A stretch of DNA of 64,000 nt. Origin: Micromonospora sp. WMMD882. GTDB lineage: Bacteria; Actinomycetota; Actinomycetes; Mycobacteriales; Micromonosporaceae. Under the pieces are notes generated by a model. That model worked only from the letters and a program-made list of their open reading frames with translations, was not told the DNA's origin and searched no databases. The DNA is taken from NCBI RefSeq assembly GCF_027497255.1, contig NZ_CP114903.1, forward strand, positions 2,480,001 through 2,544,000. The letters run 5' to 3'. Position numbers and translations under genes: made by a program. Of the stretch, positions 1-15,625 are shown piece after piece (the stretch's first letter is position 1; every line of letters starts with the position of its first letter).

Positions 1-1357
1 GGGCGGCGTCCTTCTGCTGCTTCTGGGTCAGCCGCACCCGGGCCGCGTCGACGATCTTCTGGAGTACGGTGCGCGCCTCGGCCTTCGTCCGCCGGTCGTC
101 GAGCCACCGTTTGAGGTGCTGCTCCACCAGGGACTGGATGACCTTGGTGATGCCGGCCGTGGAGAGCTCGTCCTTGGTCTGCGAGGTGAACTGCGGCTCG
201 GGGATGCGCACGTGCACCACCGCCGTCATCCCCTCCAGGATGTCGTCCAGGGTGGGCGGGTCCTCCTTGGCCTTGAGCAGCCCACGGGTGTTGCGGACGG
301 CGTCGGCGAGGGTACGCGCCAGGGCCCGCTCGAAGCCCTTGCGGTGGGTGCCGCCGTGCGCGTTGCGGATGGTGTTGGTGAAACACTCGACGGTGCGCTC
401 GTAGCCGGTGCCCCAGCGCAGCGCCACCTCCACCTCGGCGCGGCGCTGCACGTTGGACTGCATCACGCCGTTGGCGTCGGCGGCGTTCTCCCGGTACGTG
501 CCCTCACCGGTGATCAGGAGGGTGCCGGAGACCGGCCGGTCACCGGTCGGGGCGAGGAACTCCACCATGTCGGTCAGCCCGGCCGGATAGTGGAACCGCT
601 CCTCGGCCGGCCGGGCCGTGGCCTCCGGGGCGTCCTCGTCGCCGGCCCCGTCGCGGAGCCGGTCGTCGCCGGTCTCGTCGCGGAGCCGGTAGTCGACGCC
701 GGGCACCAGGAACGCGGTGTTGCGCAGCTTCATCCGGACCGCGTCGACGTCCAGGCGCGCGCCGGTCTCGAAGTAGCGGGCGTCGTGCCAGTAGCGGATC
801 GAGGTGCCGGTGCGCTGACCGCGCCGCGCCGAGCCGACCACCTGGAGCCCGGGGCCCGGGGTGAACGGGGCGTCCGGGCCGTCGCCGGCGAAGACCCCCG
901 GCACCCCGTGCCGGAACGACATGGTGTGGATCTTGCCGCCGCGCCGGACCGTGACGTCGAACCGCCGGGACAGGGCGTTGACCGCCGACGCGCCGACCCC
1001 GTGCAGGCCGCCGGAGGTCTTGTAGCCCGCGCCGCCGAACTTGCCGCCGGCGTGCAGCCGGGTCAGCACCAGCTCGACGCCGGAGATGCCGGACTTGGCG
1101 TGCACGTCGGTCGGGATGCCCCGGCCGTCGTCGTCGACCTGCACCGAACCGTCGGCGTGCAGGATCACGTCGATCCGGGTGGCGTGGCCGGCCACGCCCT
1201 CGTCGGTGGAGTTGTCGAGGATCTCGTTGACGAGGTGACCCACGCCACGGCTGTCGGTGGAGCCGATGTACATGCCGGGGCGCTTACGGACGGCGTCCAG
1301 CCCCTCCAGGTGGGTGAGGTCGTCCGCCCCGTAGAGAGGCTCAAGCTCTGCGGTCAA
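1..1357 (-). CDS. Type II DNA topoisomerase B subunit (GyrB/ParE), 3' part beyond window
   Basis: This is the ATPase subunit of a DNA gyrase or topoisomerase IV-type enzyme. The first 452 codons are visible and the gene runs off the left edge, so the TOPRIM domain is not seen. The GHKL ATPase signatures are intact: GMYIGSTDSRG near residue 28, the N-box NEILDN, DDDGRGIP near residue 73 and the lid motif GGLHGVGASAVNALS near residue 115, followed by the transducer domain. The start is taken as TTG at 1357, with GGGAG ten bases upstream, because homology begins immediately after it and no ATG is in frame nearby. Actinomycetes often carry a second GyrB-like protein away from the replication origin; which of the two this is cannot be decided without the partner A subunit. 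Confidence 0.9.
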   Translation of the reverse strand, partial: MTAELEPLYGADDLTHLEGLDAVRKRPGMYIGSTDSRGVGHLVNEILDNSTDEGVAGHATRIDVILHADGSVQVDDDGRGIPTDVHAKSGISGVELVLTRLHAGGKFGGAGYKTSGGLHGVGASAVNALSRRFDVTVRRGGKIHTMSFRHGVPGVFAGDGPDAPFTPGPGLQVVGSARRGQRTGTSIRYWHDARYFETGARLDVDAVRMKLRNTAFLVPGVDYRLRDETGDDRLRDGAGDEDAPEATARPAEERFHYPAGLTDMVEFLAPTGDRPVSGTLLITGEGTYRENAADANGVMQSNVQRRAEVEVALRWGTGYERTVECFTNTIRNAHGGTHRKGFERALARTLADAVRNTRGLLKAKEDPPTLDDILEGMTAVVHVRIPEPQFTSQTKDELSTAGITKVIQSLVEQHLKRWLDDRRTKAEARTVLQKIVDAARVRLTQKQQKDAA

Positions 1358-1706
1358 CTTGCTCGTACTCCCAGGTCTCGGCGGTGCGGGGCCACCCGCG
1401 CGAAGCTCGTCGGCAGGTGCCGCGCCGCAGCGAGCCTAGCCGGGCGTACCGACAGGCCGCCGCCGCCCCGCGCGGGGATCGCCCCCACAGACCGGTCGTG
1501 AGCTGCCCGGGCGACGACGTCCCGGCCCGCTCGCGGATCGTCCCGCGACCGGTCCGGTCAGGTCGGAGCGGCTGGTCTCCCGCCGCGCCGGCCCGCTGTT
1601 CTCGTCGAGGCAAATTGTTACAGGTCGTTGACGCCCCGGAGACAGCCGTGATCTGATCGCGCTCCTAGAGAATCTCTCACATTTCCATCGATGGATGGAG
1701 GACGCG
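1358..1706. other. Divergent intergenic region without a gene
   Basis: This 349-base gap separates two divergently transcribed genes, so it should hold two promoters. I see no convincing small gene. Close to the SGNH hydrolase start there is a short inverted repeat AGAG-AAT-CTCT at 1667-1677 and a perfect ten-base palindrome CCATCGATGG at 1685-1694, either of which could be a regulator site. The hydrolase ribosome-binding site GGAGG lies at 1697-1701. Confidence 0.35.
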
Positions 1707-5093: not shown

Positions 5094-5732
5094 ATGTCCG
5101 AACGGCACACCGTCCTGCGCTCGATGCACGACCTGGGGCTGGCAGCCTGGTTCGGCGGCTCGTTGATGGGAGCCACCGGGGTCAACGGAGCGGCGGCGCG
5201 GATCAGTGACAACACCCAACGGCTGCCGACGGCCTCGGCGAGCTGGGCCCGGTGGACGCCGGTCAACGCCGCGGCGATCGGGGCGCACCTGATCGGCGCG
5301 GTCGGCGAGCTGGTGACCGAGAGCCCTCGGCTGCTCACCCAGCGCGGCGTGGGCCGGATGAGCGCGGTCAAGACCGGGCTCACCGTCGCCGCTCTGGCGA
5401 TCACCGGGTACAGCCGTCTGCTGGGCATGCGGCTGGAGAGGGCCGGCGCCCAGCCGGTGGCCGGGGTCACCGAGCCGCAACCCGACACGCCCCCGGCGAT
5501 CGTGGGGTCGCAACGTCAGATGAAGGTGCTCCAATGGGCCGTTCCGACCGTCACCGGCGCCCTGATCGTGGTCACCAGTTTCGCCGGCGAGCAGCAGAAG
5601 CCCGGCCAGGTGCTCCGCGGCCTGCTCGGTAGGGCCGGCGGCGTGCTGGGCGGGGCGAAGGGGATGGGCACGGGAATGCTCGTCGCGAACGGCAACGGCC
5701 GGATGCACCGCGTCCTGGCGCACCGCCACTGA
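5094..5732 (+). CDS. Conserved hypothetical protein with hydrophobic segments
   Basis: A 212-residue protein I cannot assign to a characterised family. Three moderately hydrophobic Gly/Ala-rich stretches (about residues 13-30, 55-75 and 145-165) suggest a loosely membrane-associated protein, and the C-terminus is rich in glycine and arginine. ATG at 5094 follows GGAAGGGGA. It reads in the same direction as the glycosyltransferase 98 bases upstream, but nothing links the two functionally. Codon use is typical of the window, so the frame is probably genuine. Confidence 0.7.
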   Translation: MSERHTVLRSMHDLGLAAWFGGSLMGATGVNGAAARISDNTQRLPTASASWARWTPVNAAAIGAHLIGAVGELVTESPRLLTQRGVGRMSAVKTGLTVAALAITGYSRLLGMRLERAGAQPVAGVTEPQPDTPPAIVGSQRQMKVLQWAVPTVTGALIVVTSFAGEQQKPGQVLRGLLGRAGGVLGGAKGMGTGMLVANGNGRMHRVLAHRH

Positions 5733-5894
5733 GCGGCCACCGCACCGCCGTCGGGCGGCTGCCGAACCGCCGCTGAGCGACGCGGCACGACGCCGCCACC
5801 GGGCGGCCGTGGCCGCCCGCGTCGTTTCCGAGACCGCCGGGCGGCCGAGGTGCCCGGCGGTTTCGGGAACGGGACAGCCGGGCAGGACACCGGC

Positions 5895-7163
5895 ATGTCG
5901 TCCCACCGCGCCACACCCCTGGACAGCACCGTCGTGACACCCCTGGACAGCACCCTCGCGCTCGCCGTCGAGGGGTACGCCTGGCTGCCCAACCGAATGC
6001 GCAGGGCCGGCGGGGACGTCCTGTCGACCCGGTTGGCCGGTCGCCGGACGGTCGCGCTGCGCGGCCCGGCGGCGGCCCGTTTCTTCTACGACGAGCGCAA
6101 CGTCCGGCGGCACGGCGCGCTCCCCGAGCCGGTACGGAGCACCCTGTTCGGTCACGGGGCGGTGCACACCCTCGACGGCGCCGCGCACCGGGCGCGCAAG
6201 GCGATGTTCCTGGCCCTGCTGACCGACGCCGGTGGCGTCGACGGGCTGGTCGCCCGGGCCGGGACGGCCTGGGACGAGGCGGTCGCGGGCTGGGCGACCC
6301 GATCCCCCGTGGTGCTGTTCGACGAGGCCGCCCAGGTGCTCACCCGGGCGGTCTGCGACTGGGCCGGGGTGCCGGTCACGCCGGCGCAGACGCCGGGGCT
6401 GGCGGCGGACCTGGTCACGCTGGTCGACGGGTTCGGCACCGCCGGGCCGCGGCACTGGCGGGCCCGGTGGGCGCGCCGCCGGCGCGAGGCGTGGCTGGCC
6501 GACCTGATCGACCGGGTACGGCGCGGCGAGGCGGCGGCCCCGCCCGGCTCGGCGGTGGACGTGGTGGCCCGGCACCGGGACGCCGACGGCGCCGGGCTGG
6601 ACGGCCGGACCGCCGCCGTCGAGCTGCTCAACGTCCTGCGGCCGACGGTGGCGGTGAGCTGGTTCCTCGCGTTCGCGGCGCACGCCGTGCACCAGTGGCC
6701 GTGGCAGCGTGAGCAGCTCCGGGAGGGCGCTCCCGGGTACCCGGGGACGTTCGTCCACGAGGTGCGGCGGTTCTACCCGTTCGCCCCGTTCGTCGGCGGC
6801 CGGGCGGTGCGGGACCTGGAGTGGGCCGGGGAGCCGATCCCGGCCGGCGCGACGGTGCTGCTCGACATCTACGGCCAGCACCACGACGACCGGTTCTGGC
6901 GGGACCCGTACCGGTTCGACCCGGACCGGTTCCTCGACCGGGAGGTCGACCCGTACGAGCTGCTGCCGCAGGGCGGCGGGGACCCGGCGGCCGGGCACCG
7001 CTGCCCCGGCGAGGCGATCACCGAGGCGTTGCTGGGGGCGCTGGCGGTGCGACTGGCCCACCTCGACTACACCCTGCCCGAGCAGGACCTCACCATCGCC
7101 CTGCGCCGGGTACCGACCCGGCCCCGCAGTGGGGTGCTGATCGCCGTCCGGCCGCCCCGGTGA
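5895..7163 (+). CDS. Cytochrome P450 of the CYP152 peroxygenase family, OleT-like
   Basis: A 422-residue haem-thiolate enzyme of the H2O2-using fatty-acid peroxygenase group. The family-specific I-helix motif is NVLRPTVAVSWF with Arg249-Pro250, the residues that anchor the substrate carboxylate. The ExxR-type motif is in FVHEVRRFYPF, and the haem loop LLPQGGGDPAAGHRCPGE carries Cys370. The distal motif TLFGHGAVHTLDG contains Phe85 and His91, equivalent by alignment from memory to Phe79 and His85 of OleT, the alkene-forming decarboxylase; ordinary hydroxylating members have Gln there. It may therefore convert fatty acids to terminal alkenes, though hydroxylation is possible. No ferredoxin or reductase gene is beside it, as expected for a peroxygenase. 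Confidence 0.9.
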   Translation: MSSHRATPLDSTVVTPLDSTLALAVEGYAWLPNRMRRAGGDVLSTRLAGRRTVALRGPAAARFFYDERNVRRHGALPEPVRSTLFGHGAVHTLDGAAHRARKAMFLALLTDAGGVDGLVARAGTAWDEAVAGWATRSPVVLFDEAAQVLTRAVCDWAGVPVTPAQTPGLAADLVTLVDGFGTAGPRHWRARWARRRREAWLADLIDRVRRGEAAAPPGSAVDVVARHRDADGAGLDGRTAAVELLNVLRPTVAVSWFLAFAAHAVHQWPWQREQLREGAPGYPGTFVHEVRRFYPFAPFVGGRAVRDLEWAGEPIPAGATVLLDIYGQHHDDRFWRDPYRFDPDRFLDREVDPYELLPQGGGDPAAGHRCPGEAITEALLGALAVRLAHLDYTLPEQDLTIALRRVPTRPRSGVLIAVRPPR

Positions 7164-7345: not shown

Positions 7346-8245
7346 TCAGCGGAGCGAGGCGGACGGGCGGGCCGGCACGCGCAGCAGCTCGGCCAGCCGG
7401 GCGGCGTCCCGCTGGGCCTGGTCGCCGCAGCAGTTGTTCATCAGCACGTGCAGCTCGTCCGCCTCGCCGGCCAGCTCGACGAGCAGGTCGGCCCAGCGCG
7501 CGAGCTCCTCGTCCCGGTAGGCGTACCGGAAGCGTTCCTGCTTGTCGCCGCTCTCCCAGGCGGCGCTGTGGCCGTGGAACCGGATCATCGCCAGCCCGGT
7601 GGTGGTGGTGGTGAGGATCGGCGGCACCGAGGAGGCATGCCCCTGGGGCATGTCGACGCAGACGAACGTGAGGTCGTGCGCGCGGAGGAAGCTCAGCGTG
7701 TCCAGCACGTTCTCGTCGGTGAACCACGAGTGGTGGCGCAGCTCGACCCCGACCCGCCAGGGCCGGCAGCGCTCGGCGACGTGGGCGATCCGCCGCTTCG
7801 CCGCCTCGCCGTGGCCGAGCCACGGCGGGAACTGCGCCAGCACCGCGCCGGCCCGGTCGGCCGAGGCGATGGGCGCGAGCGCCGCCCGGAACCGTGCCCA
7901 CAGCTCGTCGTACGCAGGGGCGGGCAGGTCCCGCCGGGTGACCCGACCGGTCGCGCGTTCCGGGCGGAGGTCCCGGGGCAGCATCCGCACCGGCGTCGGG
8001 TGGCCGGTGAACAGGCTGAACGCCTTCACGTCGAAGGTGAACCCGGCCGGGCTGGCCGCCGCCCAGCCCTCGGCGGTCTCCACCGTCGGGATCGCGTAGT
8101 AGGAGGTGTCCACTTCGACCAGGCCGAACCGGTCGGCGTACCAGGCGAGTCGCTGCGCCGGGGTCCGGACCGACCGGGGGTACCAGCCGGAACGCAGCAG
8201 CATCTGGTCCGCCCAGGAGGACGTGCCCACCTTGATCACACCCAT
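7346..8245 (-). CDS. DUF72 (YecE-like) protein
   Basis: A 299-residue protein of the DUF72/YecE family, a TIM-barrel-like fold of unknown biochemical role found in many bacteria. Family features are the opening VGTSSWADQM, the segment VEVDTSYYAIPT, the FTFDVKAFSLFTGH strand, QFPPWLG, VELRHHSWF and MIRFHGH. The length is normal. ATG at 8245 opens the gene immediately at the first strand, leaving no room for a signal peptide, so it is cytosolic. It shares a 131-base divergent spacer with the DinB gene on the other strand. Confidence 0.85.
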   Translation of the reverse strand: MGVIKVGTSSWADQMLLRSGWYPRSVRTPAQRLAWYADRFGLVEVDTSYYAIPTVETAEGWAAASPAGFTFDVKAFSLFTGHPTPVRMLPRDLRPERATGRVTRRDLPAPAYDELWARFRAALAPIASADRAGAVLAQFPPWLGHGEAAKRRIAHVAERCRPWRVGVELRHHSWFTDENVLDTLSFLRAHDLTFVCVDMPQGHASSVPPILTTTTTGLAMIRFHGHSAAWESGDKQERFRYAYRDEELARWADLLVELAGEADELHVLMNNCCGDQAQRDAARLAELLRVPARPSASLR

Positions 8246-15130: not shown

Positions 15131-15625
15131 TCAGCGCCAGCCGTAGCCGGCGCGCAGGGCCTCGGCGACCCGGTCGAAGCGGGCCCGGTCCAGGATCGCG
15201 CCCTCCCGACGGATGCCGTCCTCCCGCATGGTGAGCACCCGGTCGAGCCGGACCCAGCTCGGCCGGTTGTCGTCGTCCCACCCGCCCGCGCCGAGCGCCA
15301 GCCAGTGCCGCTGGCCGTCGCGGTCGGCCCGGCTGGAGAGCAGGAGACCGAAGAGGGTACGGCTCTGCCGGCCCACCACGAGCACCGGCCGGTCCTTGCC
15401 CTGTCGGGGGTCGTCCTCGTAGCCGACCCAGGTCCAGACGATCTCGCCGGGATCGGCCTGGCCGTCCAGCTCCGGCGCGTACGTCAGCTCGCGTTGACGC
15501 AACGTGGCGACCTGACGTCGCCGGGCCACCTGCGCGGGGATCTGCGCGGGGCTGCCGACCGGACCACCGCCGGCCCGCACGACCCGACCGACCCGCTGCG
15601 CCACGTCTCTCCACAGCCCTGCCAC
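15131..15625 (-). CDS. PemK/MazF-family toxin-like protein, solitary
   Basis: A 164-residue protein whose C-terminal 110 residues match the PemK/MazF fold: PGEIVWTWVGYEDD and KDRPVLVVGRQSRTLFGLLL are the diagnostic first strands. MazF-type proteins are sequence-specific endoribonucleases neutralised by a cognate antitoxin. An N-terminal extension of about 50 basic residues is present, and no antitoxin-sized gene lies on either side; the immediate neighbours are an anti-sigma-like protein and an MFS pump. Many actinomycete genomes carry such antitoxin-less, extended members, so it may not be an active toxin. Confidence 0.8.
   Translation of the reverse strand: MAGLWRDVAQRVGRVVRAGGGPVGSPAQIPAQVARRRQVATLRQRELTYAPELDGQADPGEIVWTWVGYEDDPRQGKDRPVLVVGRQSRTLFGLLLSSRADRDGQRHWLALGAGGWDDDNRPSWVRLDRVLTMREDGIRREGAILDRARFDRVAEALRAGYGWR

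Follow-up and report, generated by a model that had tools for sequence, protein, structure and literature searches.

The 64,000-nt window analysed here (Micromonospora sp. WMMD882, contig NZ_CP114903.1, positions 2,480,001 to 2,544,000) encodes a cytochrome P450 whose active site recalls that of the alkene-forming decarboxylase OleT. This raises the question of whether the enzyme converts fatty acids to 1-alkenes or hydroxylates them. The gene (5895..7163, + strand) is a single open frame of 422 aa with a coding-type third-position GC of 0.95, measured from an alternative in-frame GTG start at 5850. We favour 5895 as the probable start, because the homologues P0004 and P0005 begin with MSAHR, which corresponds to MSSHR in the query. 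Shortly after this start lies a 24-bp tandem duplication (5913..5954, + strand; codons TPLDSTVV then TPLDST), which is missing from the close homologues P0003-P0005. Among named homologues, that of Micromonospora cathayae comes closest, at 81%.

Sequence and structure matches, the alignment and an AlphaFold model all reveal a P450 fold with a cysteine haem ligand, by homology the thiolate of Cys370 (7002..7004, + strand). The I-helix carries Arg249-Pro250 instead of the acid-alcohol pair, and both residues are present in 60/60 loci. The AlphaFold model, which carries no haem, has a mean pLDDT of 92.4. It superposes on the engineered P450BS-beta L78I/Q85H/G290I (7WYG) over 402 residues at 1.5 Å and on OleT over 408 residues at 1.8 Å. 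7WYG is also the top match in both sequence and structure, its structure-match Z being tied with that of wild-type BS-beta. The NCBIfam CypC model matches with 441.8 bits, under its equivalog cut-off of 600. The query is thus predicted to be an H2O2-driven fatty-acid peroxygenase and adds a member to the known CYP152 enzymes.

The first-pass annotation had equated Phe85, His91 and Arg249 with Phe79, His85 and Arg245 of OleT, and translation and alignment bear this out. The same three residues align with F79, Q85 and R242 of BS-beta. Phe85 (6147..6149, + strand) is thus also Phe in BS-beta; Arg249 (6639..6641, + strand), the expected carboxylate-binding residue, is Arg in 60/60 loci; and His91 (6165..6167, + strand) is replaced by Gln in BS-beta, SP-alpha and CYP152K6. 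As the hydroxylating BS-beta has the Phe and the Arg too, only the His discriminates within the triad. It is common to the alkene formers whose sequence was checked (OleT, its clade and three solved actinobacterial decarboxylases). The alignment does not place His91 outside the distal haem pocket, in which the residue would be expected to lie. Nor does the match appear to be due to chance, because His occupies this site in 118 of the 120 listed hits of the initial protein search (query included; Val at OleT position 170 in 119/120) and in 263/269 sequences of the query's clade. This clade comprises the sequences with at least 54% identity to the query, itself included, within a 484-sequence alignment of search hits picked by similarity, in which some genes appear twice, as protein and as locus.

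His by itself, however, does not make a decarboxylase, because CYP152T1 (His89) is classed as a beta-hydroxylase and BS-beta L78I/Q85H/G290I is one. CYP152T1 is the P450 KR of Kocuria rhizophila, for which His89 is described in PMC5818669 (this and the papers below are cited from excerpts); it is listed as a beta-hydroxylase in PMC12284513, where CYP152T7, CYP152T8 and OleT-PRN appear as alkene formers. The engineered BS-beta enzyme has a beta/alpha ratio above 20 (PMC13107396). According to Rude et al., as recounted in PMC5377825, BS-beta has an alkene/hydroxylation ratio of 0.19 and OleT one of 3.32; the single Q85H change brought BS-beta to 0.30, with less alpha-hydroxylation and more beta-hydroxylation and alkene. 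On palmitic acid, the ratio of the double mutant Q85H/V170I was about 1.3 (PMC5588734). For OleT itself the excerpts conflict: H85Q still favours alkene and had a larger effect on the spin shift than on the products in PMC5377825, whereas all H85X and I170X mutants, including I170V, lost myristic acid decarboxylation in PMC5343568. PMC13049924 calls it an open question what tips CYP152 enzymes towards decarboxylation or hydroxylation.

Beyond the triad, the pocket of the query departs from OleT at several positions. In the alignment, Leu173 (6411..6413, + strand) stands for OleT Met166, Val177 (6423..6425, + strand) for Ile170 (Val in BS-beta), Trp256 in the I-helix region (6660..6662, + strand) for Arg252, and Ala297 (6783..6785, + strand) for Val292 (Gly290 in BS-beta). 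Comparing six OleT-clade sequences and the three actinobacterial decarboxylases with BS-beta, SP-alpha and CYP152K6 yields six columns that are fixed in the former and absent from the latter: His85, Asn133, Met166, Val292, Pro296 and Thr361 in OleT numbering. The query has H91, V140, L173, A297, G301 and A366 at these columns and so shares one of the six, the His; the sample is small, with two decarboxylase groups, and most of its OleT-clade members count as decarboxylases by clade and not by known assay. The OleT clade has 42 columns specific to it, and the query shares six of these (H91, T92, L201, L356, A388 and I416). OleT position 170 is Ile in 25/27 OleT-clade sequences and Val in 2/27. 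The F-G segment of the query has 15 residues, the BS-beta length, compared with 18 in OleT and 18-19 in 27/27 sequences of its clade. Similarly, the directed-evolution variant BS-beta V74I/Q85H/F166M/G290V is cited among those with decarboxylation ability (excerpt of PMC10992877); all four changes lead to the OleT residue, and the query has only the His.

Among characterised enzymes, BS-beta (CYP152A1, 1IZO) resembles the query in Phe79, Val170, Phe173 and F-G loop length. At about 42% identity, it differs in having Gln85, Gly290 and a Tyr where the query has His, Ala and Trp256; 7WYG shares the His85. OleT-JE (CYP152L1, 4L40) and its clade are about 36% identical to the query, which lacks the Ile170, Asn133, Met166, Arg252, Val292, Pro296 and three-residue F-G insertion of OleT. 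The solved enzymes of Rothia nasimurium (8D8P), Kocuria marina (8VWK) and Corynebacterium lipophiloflavum (8W1J) have His85 and a short F-G loop, like the query. At 37-38% identity, however, they carry Leu170, Val292, Pro296 and Arg252 (Phe in 8W1J), all of which the query lacks. CYP152T1, compared here from its published description, is likewise actinobacterial, with His at the same site. SP-alpha (CYP152B1, 3AWM) shares family and fold but carries Leu, Gln and Phe at the positions of Phe85, His91 and Val177 of the query. We also considered whether Val177 or the short loop could serve as proof against decarboxylation. This was rejected, as Leu170 and a short loop are found in all three solved decarboxylases; since they decarboxylate with neither Ile170 nor the long loop, these absences do not by themselves exclude the reaction. 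OleT-PRN, too, decarboxylates with a shorter F-G loop (excerpt of PMC13049924).

The phylogeny places the query apart from OleT. In an 85-row tree, the query falls with the actinobacterial named members (37 rows, 100/98). OleT, BS-beta and CYP152K6 share another clade, in which every named member belongs to the Bacilli (27 rows, 98/100). A 49-row tree agrees, with OleT among Bacilli and the query among Actinobacteria, so that the query lies outside the OleT clade in the free trees. 8VWK, 8D8P and 8W1J join the query clade in a group of 26 rows including L089 (98/93). The trees are unrooted, and the bootstrap of the 85-row tree and of the 8D8P-containing tree is not fully settled. Rows of the 85-row tree were chosen partly to include His/Gln variants, and this tree excludes the long-branch sequences L089, L079 and L074. 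AU tests that held OleT and the actinobacterial His rows together did not reject this grouping (p 0.148 and, with the 49-row tree, p 0.356). A single clade of all sampled decarboxylases, with L089, was not rejected either (p 0.089); one clade of all His lineages including the 8D8P-type rows gave p 0.037. Inheritance of the His jointly with OleT was considered and set aside, given that the free trees place OleT with Bacilli, although the AU tests made without the 8D8P-type rows do not reject it. Separate gains of His in the OleT and actinobacterial lineages are favoured, but not proven.

Taken together, the comparisons tip us modestly towards an enzyme that attacks C-beta and makes beta-hydroxy acid as its main product, with 1-alkene as a minor to substantial one. 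In such a mechanism, the fatty-acid carboxylate would be bound by Arg249, standing in for the missing acid-alcohol pair, and would help H2O2 to generate compound I at the haem, which Cys370 ligates. His91, lying against Phe85, would steer hydrogen abstraction to C-beta. The resulting radical could then either undergo OH rebound, giving the beta-hydroxy acid, or lose CO2, giving a 1-alkene of n-1 carbons. The steps involving Arg, compound I and C-beta would follow the established chemistry of the family, and the preference for C-beta would follow from the His by analogy with BS-beta Q85H. We infer the partition between rebound and decarboxylation in the query, its product ratio and its physiological role. 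Rebound is predicted to dominate because the query has Leu, Val, Trp, Ala and Gly in place of Met166, Ile/Leu170, Arg252, Val292 and Pro296 (OleT numbering), which accompany decarboxylation in other enzymes. Beta-hydroxylation is also supported because the best match 7WYG, BS-beta Q85H, OleT I170V and CYP152T1 all point in this direction. Against it stand the nearest solved enzymes by tree branching, which are the actinobacterial decarboxylases, the ability of CYP152T1 to form 1-pentadecene, the close relatives that carry Met166 with Val292 and the conflicting reports on OleT H85Q.

The same observations could be read as a mainly decarboxylating enzyme that yields chiefly 1-alkene, like OleT and its counterparts in Rothia, Kocuria marina and Corynebacterium lipophiloflavum. 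His91 is common to all four, the tree unites the query clade with the three actinobacterial decarboxylases, and these too have the short F-G loop and lack Ile170. Moreover, CYP152T1, with its His89, can form 1-pentadecene; excerpts of PMC5818669 and PMC6167049 describe this product for the Kocuria rhizophila enzyme, for that of Corynebacterium efficiens and for others. We nevertheless regard this outcome as rather unlikely: the query has one of the six columns that set the sampled decarboxylases apart from the three hydroxylases, its identity is 35-38% to OleT and the three others compared with about 42% to BS-beta, and BS-beta variants with the His but without the other OleT residues mainly hydroxylate in the excerpts cited above. 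The OleT-like reading of the first-pass annotation is thus partly supported: its His91 is real, but that residue alone is insufficient and Val stands at the OleT 170 site. The broader suggestion of alkenes or alpha/beta-hydroxy acids is safe as worded, with beta-hydroxy acid the likelier main product.

An improbable alternative is a mainly alpha- or alpha/beta-hydroxylating enzyme with traces of alkene, in which the main effect of His91 would be on spin state or substrate affinity. An excerpt of PMC12284513 lists several alpha-selective CYP152 enzymes, and the effect of OleT H85Q on spin shift more than on products would fit. Phe at position 79, however, goes with beta-hydroxylation, as F79L raised alpha-hydroxylation in BS-beta (told in PMC5377825), and the other CYP152 of the same genome already has the SP-alpha-like Leu-Gln pair. 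Finally, we give very little credence to another substrate or a redox-partner drive in the cell, in which peroxygenase turnover of plain fatty acids would be incidental: OleT can be driven by redox partners (excerpt of PMC5343568) and the gene is an accessory one that stands by itself, no partner having appeared across genera, but the carboxylate-binding Arg and the Pro next to it recur in 60/60 loci, as for free-acid substrates.

Whichever products are formed, the query's clade is apparently a large and so far uncharacterised actinobacterial group, found in Micromonospora, Streptomyces, Nonomuraea, Geodermatophilus and others. A literature search, thin on subscription journals, returned no assay of any clade member and, among the matches listed, no characterised Streptomyces or Micromonospora CYP152. 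Left out of the 484-sequence alignment were fragments (P0257, P0258, P0259, P0173, L085, L090 and L069), an antisense translation (P0002), the query's own locus (L001), L003-L006 and L067. Trp at query position 256 is present in 269/269 clade sequences, in 46/49 of a sister set and in 7/139 of the rest. This clade-invariant residue follows the I-helix Arg-Pro; Arg stands there in OleT, 8D8P and 8VWK. Stops inside some relatives might have indicated broken genes, but this was rejected: the re-read loci are open to the end of the match or beyond, with the sole exception of L143, where the match runs 9 bases beyond the stop. For relatives with a fetched locus, we read these stops as normal C-terminal ends.

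Within the clade, His-Val occurs in 261 sequences, Gln-Val in 6 and His-Ile in 2. At least 11 His/Gln changes are found on the 85-row tree, and the His appears to be a lineage trait that changed repeatedly. The Gln variants lie on several branches and comprise F-Q-V (P0028, L125 and L140) and L-Q-V (L093, P0007 and L139; P0007 and L093 look like one gene). P0113 and L063, the latter from Pilimelia terevasa, are F-H-I and have the full Phe-His-Ile-Arg quartet of OleT at less than 40% identity to it. His, Met166 and Val292 occur together in 13 Streptomyces loci of the clade (L009, L011-L017, L019, L021, L024, L032 and L064). Judged by these residues, the Streptomyces relatives would be better candidates for alkene formation than the gene in the window. 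In the sister set, defined slightly differently here (50 rows against 49 for the Trp256 count), Met166 accompanies Val292 in 33/50 sequences.

The clade thus holds natural versions of the disputed active-site states: F-H-V in the query, F-H-I, F-Q-V, L-Q-V and His with Met166 and Val292. Natural H/Q, V/I and A/V variants make chemoselectivity testable site by site without an engineered background, which bears directly on the disagreement between the two mutational studies of OleT His85 (excerpts of PMC5377825 and PMC5343568). A bolder and doubtful proposal is that the His91/Trp256 clade represents unrecognised C-beta-directed peroxygenases that make 1-alkenes in many actinomycetes, its natural H/Q, V/I, L/M and A/V variants forming a graded series from hydroxylase to decarboxylase.

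In the genome, the P450 gene sits between a conserved pair of genes for a glycosyltransferase and a 201-aa protein and a second pair for a DUF72 protein and a mycothiol S-transferase. The next upstream gene encodes the 201-aa protein (5127..5732, + strand), which has no Pfam or NCBIfam match; the next downstream gene, on the opposite strand, encodes the DUF72 protein (7346..8245, - strand); both neighbours serve as context only. The P450 gene is present at this site in 7/20 fetched Micromonospora regions, in each of them beside the 201-aa protein. It is an accessory single gene here, because three Micromonospora genomes without it keep the flanking order, including the 201-aa protein. The gap between the 201-aa protein and DUF72 matches measures 246, 1051 and 627 bp in these genomes compared with about 1.6 kb in the window. 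No operon or partner recurred across genera: the top 40 open-frame families in 57 loci recur only within Streptomyces or within Micromonospora, in a search with crude open-frame calling and at most 14 members shown per family, which could miss a short or rarer shared gene.

CYP152 matches with E 1e-40 or better occur in 142/160 Micromonospora genomes. In a phylum sample, 12/296 genomes have a match. Matches with at least 60% identity to the query are found in 33/160 Micromonospora genomes, its own included and one being a contig-end fragment. The second CYP152 of the query's genome (L002, G000:C1:6134687-6135877), outside the window, has Leu-Gln-Ile where the query has Phe-His-Val. It is 49% identical to the query, its closest solved sequence is SP-alpha (3AWM), and matches equally distant from the query occur in most of the Micromonospora genomes listed. 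Elsewhere in the window, a PemK/MazF-like protein of toxin-antitoxin type is encoded at 15131-15625 (- strand). A 461-aa open frame at 116-1501 (+ strand), with no Pfam or NCBIfam match, has matches at 69-78% identity in 5/7 syntenic Micromonospora regions.
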